This document shows positions 1,785 to 33,993 of a stretch of 62,768 bases of DNA, in pieces (positions within the stretch are counted from its first letter, which is position 1; the number at the start of each line of letters is the position of its first letter). A program made the position numbers and the translations under genes. Source of the DNA: a virus; IMG/VR virus record IMGVR_UViG_3300033233_000038, positions 1 through 62,768 of that record. One strand, given 5' to 3'. The notes beneath the pieces are model-generated. The model ran no database searches. It had not been told where the DNA came from and saw nothing but the letters and a program-made list of their open reading frames with translations.

Positions 1785-2729
1785 TTAATCTTTTGCCCAC
1801 CAATTTTTAAGTATCTCTATATCTTTCATCTCCCAATATTCTTTAATTCTATTATATTCATCACCCATAAATCTAGGATCAAAATATTGCGGCTCTGGAG
1901 GTATTCCTTTATATCGGTAAGCATAATTATGTTCACCATGGATATGCCGAAAACCTATCGTTTTATACCAAAAACCAACGCCGGGCTTATGCAACTGTTC
2001 ATTATAAGGAGGCTCAATAATAACCTGCTTTAATCCTAAATCCCTTACCGCCACAGCAAGCCGGCCTTCCGTATTGCCGAAGTCTTGTGTAGATTTTTCG
2101 TATTCCTCAAAAGGCACCACATGATCTACCATATGCTTGGCAATCTTGAAAAAAGCGGAAGATCGCATTAAAAGCCCTGCAGTTCCTATCTCTCGTTCTA
2201 ATGCTGGGCCTGAACTCATAATATCGGCATCCCCTAAAGTTTCTAGTAAAATTGGGAAATCTTCTGGCTTTTCTATGATACAATCCCCGTTTATGCAGTA
2301 TACATATTCAAAATTTAAAGCAAATCCAGCTGCTATTCTTAAAAGCCACATAAATGGATACGAAACGCCGCCCCAGCTTTGCCAATGCCCCATAAAAAAA
2401 CTGTCCATCATCTCCATCTGATCTTTAGCCGGCATCCAACGTTCCCAATCATACTTTAGTTCTTTAGGATCAAAATAATTATCATAAGCAACGGCTATCC
2501 AATATCCTAATGGCAAATGCGCCTTAAGTGCACCAGTCAAATAGCAACGCCCCGCCGGATGAGATATGAGAAGAATTAAAACTGGTTTTTTTATCTTTAT
2601 CGCCCAAGCATCATTCGCCATGTAACAATCAACAACGTATTTACGAGTTGCTAATTCTGCTTCCCATTCTGCATCAGGTATTTCTAAATATCTTCCCGAA
2701 CGAATAAAATCTTCTCTAGTTACCCCCAT
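1785..2729 (-). CDS. Glycosyltransferase-like protein, copy B
   Basis: Paralogue of the gene just upstream (2716..3789). Both carry a conserved block reading NGDCI(I/L)EKPE about 10-20 residues before LGDAD(I/L)MS, as expected for a GT-A type nucleotide-sugar binding site with NGD in place of a DxD motif. I chose ATG 2729 (314 residues) over the upstream ATGs because AAAGGAG lies 7 bases before it. It overlaps the previous gene by 14 bases, so translation is probably coupled. Cytoplasmic transferase, acceptor unknown; it is the last gene before the poly-Ser fibre. The glycosyltransferase call rests on fold-like motifs and neighbours and is moderately sure. Confidence 0.6.
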   Translation of the reverse strand: MGVTREDFIRSGRYLEIPDAEWEAELATRKYVVDCYMANDAWAIKIKKPVLILLISHPAGRCYLTGALKAHLPLGYWIAVAYDNYFDPKELKYDWERWMPAKDQMEMMDSFFMGHWQSWGGVSYPFMWLLRIAAGFALNFEYVYCINGDCIIEKPEDFPILLETLGDADIMSSGPALEREIGTAGLLMRSSAFFKIAKHMVDHVVPFEEYEKSTQDFGNTEGRLAVAVRDLGLKQVIIEPPYNEQLHKPGVGFWYKTIGFRHIHGEHNYAYRYKGIPPEPQYFDPRFMGDEYNRIKEYWEMKDIEILKNWWAKD

Positions 2730-3789: not shown

Positions 3790-4298
3790 GCGCCTCCATC
3801 AAAACCTTTTACAATAACAAAACCGTTTAAATCCTGTTTGTCATAAAACTCGACTGTTAACTCGTATCTAACTCTGCATATAAATTCTAAAAAAGTGACG
3901 TAACCGGTATTACTTTCATTAAGAATAATCCTATCCCACTTCTTAATGAAACTCATATAAAGCAAGAGTTCACCCCTGCCGACTTTATCTATAAAAAGAA
4001 AATTGGATAATTTATCTAAAGCATCAATTTCAGCTAATTTATCTTCTACAATAGATACTACCTTTTCTCTGGAGAATTTAGTCTTCTTTAATCTGTTCGG
4101 TGGCAGATCTCTCAAGTACATATCCCTGTTTATCATATATTTTAAAACTTCAATATGAAACCAATCTTCACACCAGATGGGGCGTTCTCTCCCTTCGATA
4201 AAAATAGACTTCTGTTCTCCGTATGATAAAGGAGCATCAATGATATATCCTACTAAGTTTTGTATCTTAAGAAGTTCTACCGGATTAAATTCTCTCAC
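3771..4298 (-). CDS. Hypothetical protein of the glycosylation cassette
   Basis: About 175 residues, no family recognised. Start taken as GTG 4298: GGAGG lies 8 bases upstream and the GTGA overlaps the stop codon of the previous methyltransferase gene, a normal coupling arrangement. An upstream GTG at 4307 is also in frame but too near the ribosome site. The protein is mixed charge, without signal peptide or membrane segment. Tight packing between a methyltransferase and two glycosyltransferase-like genes suggests a part in the same sugar pathway. Confidence 0.6.
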   Translation of the reverse strand: MREFNPVELLKIQNLVGYIIDAPLSYGEQKSIFIEGRERPIWCEDWFHIEVLKYMINRDMYLRDLPPNRLKKTKFSREKVVSIVEDKLAEIDALDKLSNFLFIDKVGRGELLLYMSFIKKWDRIILNESNTGYVTFLEFICRVRYELTVEFYDKQDLNGFVIVKGFDGGACPQEN

Positions 4299-4888
4299 AG
4301 CCACCACCTCCGCATCAAAAGTGAGACGCTAGGAAAACGCCAATATGTCCCAACAATATAATATTTTTCTATGATAGGATTGGTATCTATTTCATTTTTA
4401 ATGGAAGGCATGTTATACTTAACCATCCATTCAATGTTATCCCTTTCTTCACTACCGCCTTCGAATAAAATAATACAGCGTGGCGCTATTTTAGAATGCC
4501 ATAATTCTATGAATTTTTTTAATACATCTCCGGTATTGCTGATATCTACATGCATAAAATCAATTTTTGCATCTCCATAATTTTTATAAACTTCATAAGC
4601 GTTGCCTCTTTGAAGATTGACAAACTGCCCTAGTCCCTTGCTATCAAGCATTTCTTGAACTTCCTGTTGACTGCCGTGCTTAAAGGAATAATCATCAAAT
4701 AAATCATACGCGTCAAATGGAGGAACCCAATTATATGCATCTTTTATCATCTTTATAGCTTCTGCTATATGATACGTGCTATAGCCGTCTAACACACCCA
4801 GCTCAACAATCCTCGAAGGTTTAAAAGCTAAAACATTTGCTTTAAGAATTCTACCGCAGTCATTTTCGATATAAGAAGACCTCATCAT
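4295..4888 (-). CDS. Class I SAM-dependent methyltransferase
   Basis: 197 residues. The SAM-binding motif I is visible as VELGVLDGYST near residues 28-38, followed by DAYDLFDDYS and a motif-IV-like DFMHVDIS. This pattern resembles the Methyltransf_24 group often found in surface-polysaccharide loci. It overlaps the upstream small gene by an ATGA. It probably methylates a sugar or glycan; the substrate cannot be read from sequence. The arginine and tryptophan rich end (MRRWWL) coincides with the ribosome site of the next gene. Confidence 0.65.
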   Translation of the reverse strand: MMRSSYIENDCGRILKANVLAFKPSRIVELGVLDGYSTYHIAEAIKMIKDAYNWVPPFDAYDLFDDYSFKHGSQQEVQEMLDSKGLGQFVNLQRGNAYEVYKNYGDAKIDFMHVDISNTGDVLKKFIELWHSKIAPRCIILFEGGSEERDNIEWMVKYNMPSIKNEIDTNPIIEKYYIVGTYWRFPSVSLLMRRWWL

Positions 4889-5142
4889 TTATCTCTCCCA
4901 ACATTAAGAAAATTAATCTTTTTGGATTGCCTGTTAAAACCTTCCAAATATTCATTGATCTCTTCTCTAACATCAGAACGTTCTTTACTCAAAGTTTTAA
5001 TTTTAATGGCTAATTTTCCGACAGATAGGATGTCTTTTTTTCTATGAGCTTCGGATACCATCTCTTCTGTGTGCCAGATTTTTATATTCAAGATAGATAA
5101 CCTATCTATCCACTCCCCTATTGATATAATGTTTTTATTCAT
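4885..5142 (-). CDS. Small DUF6165-like protein
   Basis: 85 residues beginning IISIGEWIDRLSILNIKIWH, which recalls the GELIDKLTILEIK signature of the DUF6165 family seen beside glycosyltransferases in polysaccharide loci. The rest is predicted helical and charged, probably coiled coil. It overlaps both neighbours by 4 bases (ATGA). Function is unknown; a partner of one of the transferases is a reasonable guess. Confidence 0.5.
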   Translation of the reverse strand: MNKNIISIGEWIDRLSILNIKIWHTEEMVSEAHRKKDILSVGKLAIKIKTLSKERSDVREEINEYLEGFNRQSKKINFLNVGRDK

Positions 5143-6380
5143 AAAATTTTTACTTCAGGTAGTGGTACGATTAATTTCGTACCATTTCTTATAAGTTCGC
5201 TTTCCCGCTTCGCAAAATCAACAGCGAAACCATAAGGAAGGATCAATAAATAATCTGGCTTGACTTTTCGCATAGCAGATTCATCCTTAATTGGAATATC
5301 TGTCCCAATCATATATTTTCCTATCTTGAATGGATTAACATCAGCTACGGCTTCTACCAGTTGGCTATCAATACCACAATATTGAAGAATAGTATTTCCT
5401 TTTGTCGAGGCCCCATATGCCCAGATTTTCTTGTTTTCTGATTTTAACTTAGTCAGGAGCTGTAATAAATCATCTTTTGTCTTTTGAATACGATTATTAA
5501 AATCCTGATAAGTCTTTATATCGAATAAATTAAATAAATCTTCCTGCTCAATAAGGCTTAACAATCTTTGATTGCCTATATAGATAGTCTTTAAAAAATC
5601 CTTTTTTCTTACAAAAATACGGAAACTGCCTCCATAGATATCATTCAAAGAAACGTTGAAAATTTCGAGGCCAGCCTTACCCAAAATCCACTGAAGCACA
5701 CTAATGGTATAATAATAAATATGTTCGTGAACAATGTTATCATACATGTTAGTTTTAAGCATTGATGGAAGATATGCCATCTGGATAATCCAAATACCTT
5801 CATCATCTAAGCACTCAAAAATATCTCTACAAAAACTTACTGGATCAATGATATGATAAAACATAGCAATACTGAAAATAAGTTTTGCCTTTTTAGAAAC
5901 ATTGGCCTCAACCATTTCACAGGAAAATGGACTTTTAATAAACTTAGCACCTGCAAAAACAGGTTCTATATTTTCCGCAGGATCAATATTTAAGAGCTCA
6001 AAACCATTACCTGCAAAAAAAGAAAGCAAAGTTCCATCATTCCCGCCAATATCTAAAATCAAATCTCCCCTATTTAAACAACTTAAGATTTTTCCTTCTT
6101 TAGCTACCTCTTTCAATGCCTGTCTCATATACTCGTTAGAAGAACTGGTATAAGGATAAATTTTATACATCTCACTTAAATCTGGCTGAGAATCAAGTTG
6201 AAGAACTCCGCAATTTTTTTCTGAATTTCCTTTTATACAAAGTTTAAGTTCTAAAGGATATTTTTTCAGCTTGTGCCTATAATTTAAAGAATCAGGGAAA
6301 ATAGATGAAAGATATTGTTCCCCTAAATTAACACAAGAAATAAGGTCAGGATTATTGCATATTCGGCATTTTTTAAGCAT
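5139..6380 (-). CDS. Sugar C-methyltransferase (Methyltransf_13/_11/_14 architecture)
   Basis: 413 residues with the three-part layout of NDP-hexose C-methyltransferases such as the TylC3 group. An N-terminal zinc-type Cys cluster (C5, C8, C48, C57) comes first. A Rossmann methyltransferase core with LDIGGNDGTLL near residue 108 follows. A C-terminal domain has WAYGASTKGNT near residue 322. These enzymes add a methyl group from SAM to a keto-sugar carbon, making branched deoxysugars, in the cytoplasm. It overlaps the next gene by 4 bases and the upstream epimerase by 8. Family assignment is fairly secure; the exact sugar is not. Confidence 0.8.
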   Translation of the reverse strand: MLKKCRICNNPDLISCVNLGEQYLSSIFPDSLNYRHKLKKYPLELKLCIKGNSEKNCGVLQLDSQPDLSEMYKIYPYTSSSNEYMRQALKEVAKEGKILSCLNRGDLILDIGGNDGTLLSFFAGNGFELLNIDPAENIEPVFAGAKFIKSPFSCEMVEANVSKKAKLIFSIAMFYHIIDPVSFCRDIFECLDDEGIWIIQMAYLPSMLKTNMYDNIVHEHIYYYTISVLQWILGKAGLEIFNVSLNDIYGGSFRIFVRKKDFLKTIYIGNQRLLSLIEQEDLFNLFDIKTYQDFNNRIQKTKDDLLQLLTKLKSENKKIWAYGASTKGNTILQYCGIDSQLVEAVADVNPFKIGKYMIGTDIPIKDESAMRKVKPDYLLILPYGFAVDFAKRESELIRNGTKLIVPLPEVKIL

Positions 6381-23411: not shown

Positions 23412-23645
23412 ATGAAATGCCCATTCGGAAACTGTGATAATGAAGAAGATAATATACACTTTGACGAACCAGAGGCACATATTATCTTAACCTTAGGAGC
23501 GGCCGGCCACGTACACGTTCACGCGCCGTTTGAAGATGAAGTAGCATTGAAGCGCATGATAGACGGTTTGATACGGGAAACATGGAAGACAGGAATTGAT
23601 TATTCTTTGCCTCCAGTGATTGAACCGAGAAAGGAGCTTATATGA
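23412..23645 (+). CDS. Small Cys/His protein related to the N-terminus of the glycosyltransferase fusion
   Basis: 77 residues with CPFGNC and HVHVHAPFED. The layout, Cys pair, then a strand, then HVH(A/G)P and an amphipathic helix (ALKRMIDGLI), is repeated at residues 1-50 of the 8669..11401 protein. ATG follows AAAGGAGATTAAAATA. Function unknown; possibly a small metal-binding domain. Confidence 0.55.
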   Translation: MKCPFGNCDNEEDNIHFDEPEAHIILTLGAAGHVHVHAPFEDEVALKRMIDGLIRETWKTGIDYSLPPVIEPRKELI

Positions 23646-23827
23646 CAAATAAAGTAAAATCAAGAGATCGTAAAGTCAATACCATGATATTGTTGACTGC
23701 GCCAGAAACTGAATTCTTGGACAGGAAGATTGACCATAATGAGCCTCTAAAGAATTCACGGTCGGCAATAATCCGGTTTTTGATTCGTAAGGCGATGGCT
23801 ACTCCGGCATTGCTTGACACGAAATAA
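23642..23827 (+). CDS. Small putative ribbon-helix-helix protein
   Basis: 61 residues, basic at the N-terminus (KSRDRKVNTMILLTAPETEF), then SRSAIIRFLIRKAM, a pattern like the second helix of RHH regulators. Overlaps the previous gene (ATGA). A TAAACCGTTACG site lies across its stop codon and the following promoter, so it is a candidate autoregulator. The fold call is tentative. Confidence 0.45.
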   Translation: MTNKVKSRDRKVNTMILLTAPETEFLDRKIDHNEPLKNSRSAIIRFLIRKAMATPALLDTK

Positions 23828-23836
23828 ACCGTTACG
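23825..23836 (+). promoter_or_regulatory. TAAACCGTTACG site (outlying copy)
   Basis: Exact match to the 12-base motif that occurs repeatedly at 33.5-33.9 kb. It lies 12 bases before the -35 box at 23848; a weaker inverted copy is at 23919-23930 downstream of the -10. This bracket suggests an operator. Confidence 0.6.
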
Positions 23837-23847
23837 AAAATTGCCTA

Positions 23848-23875
23848 TTGACAAAAAATAATTCTATGATAAGAT
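23848..23875 (+). promoter_or_regulatory. Promoter upstream of the SNF2 helicase
   Basis: TTGACA (23848-23853), 16-base spacer, TAAGAT (23870-23875). Transcription would start near 23882 and make a leader of about 170 bases containing the pseudoknot. Confidence 0.65.
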
Positions 23876-23939
23876 GATTTTACGACGAGCAAGAATTATT
23901 CTGTTAAAAACATATCGGTATAACGGTTTTAAAATAGTA

Positions 23940-24033
23940 TGGTCTTGTGGAAAACAAAATTGATCCCAACAGGAAAGATCAGTGCCTCGTTACAGGGACT
24001 GATATTGTCTTCCACAAGACCACCTGTTGGGAT
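23940..24033 (+). ncRNA. Structured leader RNA with an H-type pseudoknot
   Basis: Stem A pairs 23940-23952 with 24010-24022, 13 bp without mismatch (GGTCTTGTGGAA core). Stem B pairs 23963-23973 with 24023-24033, 11 bp without mismatch (ATCCCAACAGG). Because the B left arm lies inside stem A and its right arm outside, the two form a pseudoknot with abutting, stackable helices. A third hairpin (ATCAGT/ACTGAT plus CCT/AGG, 23978-24003) sits in the loop. It ends 21 bases before the helicase start codon, so it could control translation or be a processed small RNA. No known family recognised. Confidence 0.7.
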
Positions 24034-24054
24034 TCTTAATTTTTAAGGAATTTT

Positions 24055-25677
24055 ATGTTTGTTTCGGTTAAAGACGATTCGGCAATCTTAAAATGCCGCT
24101 ACCAAGAGAAGGAATTAATAAAGGCAATAGGTGATTATAAATTTGACAGAGTATCTTCATCATGGATTTTCCCGCTCAAGAAACTAGTCGATATTATTGA
24201 TAATCTCAATATCAAGTATGATCCAGAGACAAAAACCATTTATGACCGGCTCCGTAATGACAGGCACAAGCAACATCAAAAGATCAACCTCGCCAATAAA
24301 ATAAAATCTGTTCCACAAACTGTCGAAGAAATTTTAAACGATAAATTCGATGGCATGAATTTGTCAATGTACTATCAGCACCAAAAGAAAGCGATAGCAT
24401 TGGCATCGTTATTTGGAAGTTATGCATTATTTATGGAAACAGGCACAGGTAAAAGTGTTTGTGCCATTAAACTTATTGAATATTGGAAAGTGCCGGCAAT
24501 GATAGTAGCGCCATTGACTACGCTTGAAAGCGTGTGGGTAAAGGAAATTGAGAAGTGGGCGCCGCATCTTAAAAAAGTAATTCTATGGAATAATCTGAAA
24601 GCGTTTAATCTTAATTTCGATGTGTATATCATTAACTATGCTCAATTCAAGATTATGTCTAAAAAATCAGAAGTACCGATTGAAAGGAAAATCCAATGCC
24701 TTGTTATTGATGAGTCAAGTTGCTGCAAAAATCCAAGATCTGAAATAAGCAAAGCAATAATTTCTTATAAGGATAAAATAAAATATAAACTTTGTCTTAC
24801 AGGGACCCCGGCCCCAAATAACCTTCTCGAATACTGGGGCCAGCTCGCATTTATTAATGACTCGCTATTAGGATCAAACTTCTATAAATTCCGTAACACG
24901 TTTTTTTATAGTACCGGTTTCGGCGGATACTTATACCGCCCGATGAAAGGCGCTAAGGAAGCGATTATAGAGAACGTATCAAAGCAAGCCTTTTCAGTGA
25001 AAAAAGAAGATTGTCTCGATTTGCCTGACCGCGTTTATGAAACGCGATATGTCTATATGGATGAAGTGCAGAAAAAAGCTTATGAAATGATGAAGAAAGA
25101 AAATATCTTGGAGTTTCAAGGCAACATCACTCTGGCCGCAAATGAATTAGCGAAGATAATGAAGCTCAGACAGGTCACTTCCGGCTGGAGTATTAACACT
25201 GAGGGTATCCCTATTTTTATTTCAGACACAAAGGTAAACGCACTAAAAGAATTACTTGAAGAAATATCTGAAGATAAACAAGTAATTATTTGGGTCAACT
25301 TTCATTTTGAGATACATCGATTAAAAGAAGTTTTCAAAGATGAATGTAATGTCCTCTACGGCGAACTCTCTCAAAAAGAAAAACAGAAAAACATAGAAGA
25401 TTTCCAAAATAAAAAATACCGTATACTTATCGCGCATCCGCTTTCCGGTGGTATGGGGATCAACTTCCAACAATGCTCATACGCAATATGGTATAGCCTC
25501 AATTATTCTCAAGAACAATATTCTCAAGCTAATGACAGGATTTATAGAATAGGACAACAGAATAAAGTCACTTATTTTATTTTACTCGCAAAAGATAGTA
25601 TCGATGAAGTGATATATAGAGTCCTTGATAAGAAAGCTGACCTAATGGAAGAGTGCATGAAGTTATTAAAAAATTAA
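24055..25677 (+). CDS. SNF2-family DNA helicase/translocase
   Basis: 540 residues. An N-terminal 60-residue segment resembles the HARP-type annealing domain. Then Walker A METGTGKS (about 127-134), motif II DESS (about 219-222), motif III LTGTPAPN (about 248-255) and motif VI NDRIYRIGQQ (about 493-502), in SNF2 order. Such single-chain phage SNF2 proteins remodel or reanneal DNA in replication and recombination. AAGGAAT is the ribosome site, just after the pseudoknot. It has its own promoter. Confidence 0.88.
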   Translation: MFVSVKDDSAILKCRYQEKELIKAIGDYKFDRVSSSWIFPLKKLVDIIDNLNIKYDPETKTIYDRLRNDRHKQHQKINLANKIKSVPQTVEEILNDKFDGMNLSMYYQHQKKAIALASLFGSYALFMETGTGKSVCAIKLIEYWKVPAMIVAPLTTLESVWVKEIEKWAPHLKKVILWNNLKAFNLNFDVYIINYAQFKIMSKKSEVPIERKIQCLVIDESSCCKNPRSEISKAIISYKDKIKYKLCLTGTPAPNNLLEYWGQLAFINDSLLGSNFYKFRNTFFYSTGFGGYLYRPMKGAKEAIIENVSKQAFSVKKEDCLDLPDRVYETRYVYMDEVQKKAYEMMKKENILEFQGNITLAANELAKIMKLRQVTSGWSINTEGIPIFISDTKVNALKELLEEISEDKQVIIWVNFHFEIHRLKEVFKDECNVLYGELSQKEKQKNIEDFQNKKYRILIAHPLSGGMGINFQQCSYAIWYSLNYSQEQYSQANDRIYRIGQQNKVTYFILLAKDSIDEVIYRVLDKKADLMEECMKLLKN

Positions 25678-33417: not shown

Positions 33418-33993
33418 TTTTTTTATTAAAACAACCTTTTTTTTGACATTTTTTTCTATGTATATTAATTACAAATGGTTACAATATAAGACAAACCGAT
33501 ATAAACTGGTACGGAGGCGCGTAACGGTTTATAAAATTACATAAGTTGTTGGCTGACAAATAATTATGAAAATCCTCGACGAGCTTTCATATTACTTTAA
33601 TGATAACAACGAGTTGCGTCAAAAAACCGTAAACCGATACGCTACCACACGGCAAGCATATGTATGTTTAATTTTTATTTTTCATTTTTATTTTTTAAAA
33701 AATAAATCTCTCATGTGCTTGACGGCACTGGTCGTATCGGTTTAGTGTTTTATTATAATGTTTGTTTGTTACCAATGGGTTATGGAAAAAAAAAGCAAAA
33801 ATAAACCGATACGGCTTAGTGCCACAATGAGTTACGACAAAAAAGAGCACGAAAACAGCCTAAACCGTTACGCAAAAATGGCAAAAAACGCCAAAACCGT
33901 AACGCGATAGCACTTTTTTGTTTCAGTTTTTTTCTCGGTATCGCGTTACGATAAAGAACTTAAAAAAGTTTTAAACAAAGGTACATATAATAT
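33418..33993. other. Repeat-rich non-coding block, origin or centromere candidate
   Basis: No gene supported. Five exact copies of TAAACCG(A/T)TACG occur: 33520-33531 (inverted), 33630-33641, 33733-33744 (inverted), 33802-33813 and 33861-33872. Degenerate copies lie at 33502 and 33893. A perfect 12-base inverted repeat CGTAACGCGATA/TATCGCGTTACG spans 33898-33909 and 33939-33950. A TTGACA at 33443 has only a weak -10. An A/T tract lies at 33665-33710. Such density suggests a nucleoprotein assembly site. Confidence 0.7.

Follow-up and report, generated by a model that had tools for sequence, protein, structure and literature searches.

A conserved RNA pseudoknot follows an operator-flanked promoter in a group of related phages

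A 94-nucleotide (nt) segment of a virus genome and its counterparts in three related phages almost certainly constitute a conserved RNA pseudoknot, whose stems have been kept by compensatory change. The window, meaning the whole stretch of DNA that was analyzed, is a virus sequence of 62,768 bases. A first-pass annotation of this DNA had described perfect, interlocking helices of 13 and 11 base pairs (bp) with an inner hairpin, and this architecture is confirmed at the same positions (Table 1). The 3′ arms of the two helices (A′ and B′) abut, as had been claimed. However, the full helix stacking proposed on this basis is strained in the window copy, because A′ and B′ are continuous and the 10-nt linker from A to B must therefore span both stacked helices. 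The corresponding linkers in the relatives are 21–51 nt long, compared with 10 nt in the window, and are A-rich in all copies.

Table 1. Features of the pseudoknot locus in the window and pseudoknots of related phages
Feature	Position	Strand	Description
61-aa gene	23642..23827	+	Probable ribbon-helix-helix repressor; strand-helix-helix pattern, SRSAIIRxLI
Operator-like site upstream of promoter	23827..23836	+	AACCGTTACG
Sigma70-like promoter	23848..23875	+	TTGACA-16-TAAGAT, TG before -10
Inverted operator-like site, promoter–pseudoknot interval	23916..23928	-	AACCGTTATACCG; equivalent in L014, L021, L041
Stem A, 5′ arm (A)	23940..23952	+	TGGTCTTGTGGAA; perfect complement of 24010-24022
Loop 1, between A and B	23953..23962	+	A-rich, 10 nt
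Stem B, 5′ arm (B)	23963..23973	+	ATCCCAACAGG; CCC at base invariant in four phages
Hairpin C, between B and A′	23978..24003	+	6 bp, one G-G mismatch, 3 bp
Stem A, 3′ arm (A′)	24010..24022	+	TTCCACAAGACCA; 13/13 paired with A
Stem B, 3′ arm (B′)	24023..24033	+	CCTGTTGGGAT; 11/11 paired with B; GGG base; abuts A′
T-rich tract, 3′ of stem B	24034..24045	+	8 T in 12; terminator-like; reaches into helicase Shine-Dalgarno
SNF2-family helicase, next gene downstream	24055..25677	+	Pfam SNF2-rel_dom 5e-30, Helicase_C 2e-17
L003 pseudoknot	4954-5068		Stems of 17 positions and 14 bp
L041 pseudoknot	4257-4401		Stems of 16 and 15 bp
L002 pseudoknot	1815-1942		Stems of 17 positions (two mismatches) and 16 bp

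Markov-1 shuffling of the window, repeated 1200 times, never produced a pair of perfect, interlocked helices with 13 or more and 11 or more bp inside 120 nt, and pairs of at least 10 and 10 bp numbered only 17 in total across all of the shuffles. When looser limits were applied (11 and 9 bp, within 160 nt), the window contained 4 interlocking pairs versus 0.1 expected. Its other interlocking repeats, near 15.8, 33.8, and 48.7 kb, were rejected as an AT palindrome tract, an operator array, and a chance pair, respectively; the region surrounding the chance pair lacks the signals of the operon. The best nested fold of the 94 nt lies 5 standard deviations below those of shuffled sequences. With a standard pseudoknot penalty, the joint formation of stems A, C, and B in the window is estimated at about −50 kcal/mol, compared with −37.7 kcal/mol for the nested fold. 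The estimates for all four copies range from −48 to −52.5 kcal/mol with the knot and from −31 to −38 kcal/mol for the best nested fold. A scored scan gave values of 70 for L003 and 71 for L041, versus 57 for the best of 40 shuffled windows. The window was scored by perfect-helix counts, and a looser automated pseudoknot scan overlooks both its copy and that of L002 as a result of greedy helix extension.

Relatives of the window phage were located by protein searches, and one of them, L041, is a contig in a bacterial bin. Three (L002, L003, and L041) carry the same A–B–hairpin–A′–B′ order after the same promoter. The helicases of these relatives are 63–67% identical, whereas the arm sequences are almost wholly different. 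Hairpin C is likewise present in all four copies with a different sequence in each. Since MAFFT misaligned the arms when given all four copies, covariation was counted in a structure-guided alignment that was made by hand and holds only three to four sequences. Every one of the 55 stem B cells in this alignment holds a standard pair, and both sides have changed at 9 of 15 positions. For stem A, which can be aligned in three copies, 47 of 51 cells are paired and 7 of 17 positions are altered on both sides. The only invariant pairs in the portion of stem B common to the four copies are three C-G pairs at its base. L002 and L041 can be aligned by sequence near A′ and loop 1, yet their B and C elements differ. 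Because the alignment is small, we place equal weight on the number of independent intact knots and on covariation. The annotation had named arm changes without compensation as the outcome that would speak against the structure, but those observed in L002, L003, and L041 are compensated. Thus both long helices of the three-stemmed A–B–C–A′–B′ topology are backed by covariation.

Two other readings of these data can be considered. Inverted repeats exist in the DNA as well as in the RNA, and the interleaved repeats could be a protein-binding or recombination site; the G-U versus A-C cells do not clearly separate the strands. We regard such a DNA-level element as very improbable. Every copy lies behind a strong promoter that reads in the sense direction, the T-rich tail occurs solely on that side, and complete replacement of both stem sequences is ill-suited to a sequence-specific site. 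A short coding sequence of ∼27–34 codons might instead overlap the fold, and every copy does have an open frame with an ATG or TTG start just before stem B. However, the frames of L002 and L041 differ relative to conserved nucleotides, the peptides differ, and no Shine-Dalgarno sequence precedes the frame in the window, L002, or L041. The coding explanation is nearly refuted by these findings.

The locus has a shared gene order: genes for a ParB-like protein, RNase H, a small CPF.C protein, and a probable ribbon-helix-helix protein of 61–68 aa, followed by the promoter and the SNF2 helicase. In L011 and L041, the ParB or RNase H gene is absent from its expected place. The pseudoknot had been credited with its own promoter 65 bases upstream, and we find a sigma70-like promoter that ends 64 nt before arm A. 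The same promoter layout occurs at position 4214 of L041, 4911 of L003, and 1769 of L002. The common context is a promoter that lies between inverted AACCGTTATACCG sites and adjoins the small probable ribbon-helix-helix gene. Sites resembling AACCGTTATACCG or AACCG[AT]TACG, with at most one mismatch, are present in 8 of 8 relative records, several of which have them in two places. The 61-aa protein has no Pfam match, and a fold search returned a weak match to ParD2. This neighboring gene likely encodes the regulator of the pseudoknot promoter.

Several additional features of these regions were observed. In L021 (4358-4490), the two operator sites, as read by eye, form a 20-bp perfect inverted repeat around the promoter. 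Exact AACCG[AT]TACG sites in the window are confined to the pseudoknot promoter and an array at 33.5–33.9 kb. This array (33500-33950) consists of about six sites in both orientations within noncoding, AT-rich DNA after a primase-like gene, and is possibly a second regulated locus or a replication origin. In L002, the interval that separates the promoter from the small regulator gene contains a long and very stable hairpin (1683-1741; z of −5.7), possibly the terminator of the upstream operon. A promoter-like sequence on the minus strand of the window (TTGACA-18-TATCGT, 24338-24367), within the helicase gene, is directed back across the pseudoknot. An antisense transcript from this site could likewise form a knot.

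The helicase start codon lies 21 nt past B′, which agrees with the spacing originally reported. In contrast, the suggestion that the pseudoknot is a helicase-specific leader controlling helicase translation is not supported. A 62-aa open reading frame (ORF) is located between knot and helicase in L003, and in L041 this interval is ∼100 nt long and may contain a short hydrophobic ORF. In L002, the knot is followed by a tRNA-like element and several ORFs, and the helicase is ∼1 kb downstream. Moreover, five relatives carry the helicase without the knot. Among these, the AACCGTTATACCG-flanked promoter of L014 and L021 runs directly into the helicase, L011 and L013 have short helicase leaders, and L004 has other sequence in place of the knot. 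The helicase-specific reading fails because of these varied following genes and knot-less leaders, whereas a promoter-linked RNA stands. In a helicase tree whose root is a midpoint drawing and in which one fork is poorly supported, the knot occurs in L041, the window, L003, and L002, and L002 is nested among the knot-less L004, L014, and L021. This distribution is explained more simply by two losses than by four gains.

L002 (1950-2043) and L004 (5092-5178) carry tRNA-like elements with an acceptor-like stem of 7–8 bp, a T-arm-like hairpin with a TTCGAAT or TCCGACT loop, and odd bodies. Neither element is called by ARAGORN or Rfam. The helicase gene of L014 is interrupted (4801-5379) by a 190-aa ORF that by eye resembles an HNH homing endonuclease.

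A broader cis-acting role also can be envisioned, in which a 5′ UTR element keeps the mRNA intact or regulates how the next gene is translated, perhaps with the helicase or a different early protein as autoregulator, as for T4 gene 32. In both the window and L003, the knot is in the sense orientation and precedes a start codon by 21–24 nt. The B′ arm of L041 holds AAGGGG 8 nt before a GTG, and by eye stem B could mask this sequence. The T4 gene 32 leader pseudoknot provides a precedent (PMC535899). However, the following gene is not constant across the four copies, the helicase Shine-Dalgarno sequence of the window (24045-24049) is outside the knot, and the helicase occurs without the knot in the five relatives noted above. 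We consider this role a serious rival, if a rather unlikely one.

The best mechanism that we can offer, which we hold only tentatively, is that of a leaky terminator-like leader in which A:A′ competes kinetically with the terminator stem. Transcripts from the operator-flanked promoter would have the pseudoknot in their 5′ portion. Stem B, with its invariant CCC/GGG base and the T-rich tract beyond it, would act as a leaky stem of the intrinsic-terminator type, such that some transcripts stop as a discrete RNA of ∼110–165 nt and the remainder read through into the operon with the SNF2 helicase. Because A:A′ is complete before B′ is made, B:B′ must wind inside a closed loop, and from this we infer the kinetic competition: A:A′ would form first, enclose B in its loop, and slow B:B′ closure. 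The knot would thereby determine how many transcripts end as short RNA relative to those that read through, a balance that would shift if a ribosome, a protein, or another RNA occupied arm A.

Intrinsic terminators have a G+C-rich stem base followed by a T-rich tract, and stem B partly resembles them; its loop, which contains hairpin C and A′, is long. The tail after B′ has 8–9 T residues in 12 in three of the four copies, compared with a background of ∼2% for at least 8, and the tail of L002 is only moderately T-rich. A simple terminator scan called nothing at stem B in the four copies because the loop is ∼50–60 nt and the tails are imperfect. The recurrence of four knots in the same place after the same promoter also counts for the leaky-terminator mechanism. 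In L014 and L021 nothing intervenes between this promoter and the helicase, so that read-through would be needed wherever the knot is present. Two further points count against the mechanism: termination would oppose helicase expression, and the position of arm A relative to the downstream operator differs between the window and L041.

The main rival is an independent structured RNA that acts in trans and has no more than its promoter in common with the gene that follows; it could, for instance, be a decoy for, or an inhibitor of, a host protein that binds or senses RNA. It would account for the different genes after the knot (the helicase in the window, the 62-aa ORF in L003, the possible short ORF in L041, and the tRNA-like element with ORFs in L002). 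In three phages, arm A begins ∼9–12 nt from where the transcript is expected to start, the knot can be lost like accessory functions (L014, L021, and L004), and fast turnover of stem sequence fits recognition of shape. In contrast, no partner, target, or host mimic was found, either with a sequence model in 384 genomes or by complementarity within the window, where no clear trans target of the pseudoknot is present. We judge a free trans-acting RNA to be somewhat unlikely.

Searches for known families and further copies uphold the earlier statement that no named family fits. At the gathering threshold, Rfam 15 has no family at the pseudoknot and matches only a tRNA elsewhere in the window; the matches gained by relaxing the limits were at chance level, lay upstream or on the opposite strand, and were not plausible. 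A nucleotide search of phage records gave no match, and neither did an IMG/VR pattern scan with the exact arms. Scanning with the conserved junction CCAATTCTSTCGGYATTT returned L002 itself and only knot-less chance matches. A sequence-structure model built from L002 and L041 recovered L003 weakly (E of 0.058), did not recover the window's knot, and had no further match among 384 sampled genomes of the phylum that includes the L041 bin. When up to 384 genomes from this bin's class and phylum were searched for more relatives, none showed the same operon. We file the element as an unnamed structured RNA of a known topological kind, with longer stems and without an Rfam family.

Some known systems share features with this locus. 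The RCd22-abiF leader is phage-encoded and has one promoter, a structured noncoding RNA of ∼100–130 nt, a terminator, and then a gene reached by read-through (PMC12373285), which makes it a precedent for the proposed leaky-terminator arrangement. However, the Rfam scans revealed no abiF motif (RF03085) here, no Abi_2 gene is downstream, and the fold is a long three-stemmed pseudoknot. In T4 and RB69, a pseudoknot likewise lies in the 5′ leader of a phage gene for DNA metabolism, gene 32; its sequence has diverged among related phages, and some lack it (PMC535899). That pseudoknot occupies ∼28 nt at the mRNA 5′ end next to an unstructured UUAAA operator (PMC535899), whereas the present one spans 94–145 nt with stems of 11–17 bp and a varying downstream gene. 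A conserved regulated gene directly downstream, as in the gene 32 case, is not seen, since L002, L003, and L041 differ.

Three-stemmed pseudoknots, which are H-type with an extra hairpin in loop 2, include the fluoride and preQ1-II riboswitches and the coronavirus frameshift element (PMC11262651). The phage RNA resembles them in topology, but its stems are far longer, Rfam contains no match to it, and neither a metabolite gene nor a frameshift setting accompanies it. Type III antitoxins (ToxI) and their phage mimics likewise are phage-borne pseudoknot RNAs between a promoter and a gene (PMC3475682). This assignment was rejected: an SNF2 helicase rather than a ToxN-like gene is downstream, and the RNA is a single copy without tandem repeats, its arms not repeated within the window.

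Among the known leader pseudoknots compared, long and perfect interlocking stems in which nearly all letters have changed are unusual. The pseudoknot is a compact model of selection that preserves RNA shape without preserving sequence. It is doubtful, though conceivable, that it represents an undescribed phage RNA family whose transcription terminator stem is knotted with a hairpin formed before it. The knot itself would then decide whether a stable RNA, which might act on a host protein through shape alone, is released or the replication operon is expressed. If stem B does terminate transcription inside the knot, then this RNA would offer a testable route by which RNA topology controls read-through. 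Comparison of the sequences indicates that this group of uncultivated phages probably makes an RNA from one promoter, controlled by the predicted repressor, and that the shape of this RNA is real and under selection. The pseudoknot also marks an early locus, controlled by a predicted repressor, in a phage group that exchanges accessory RNAs and small genes.
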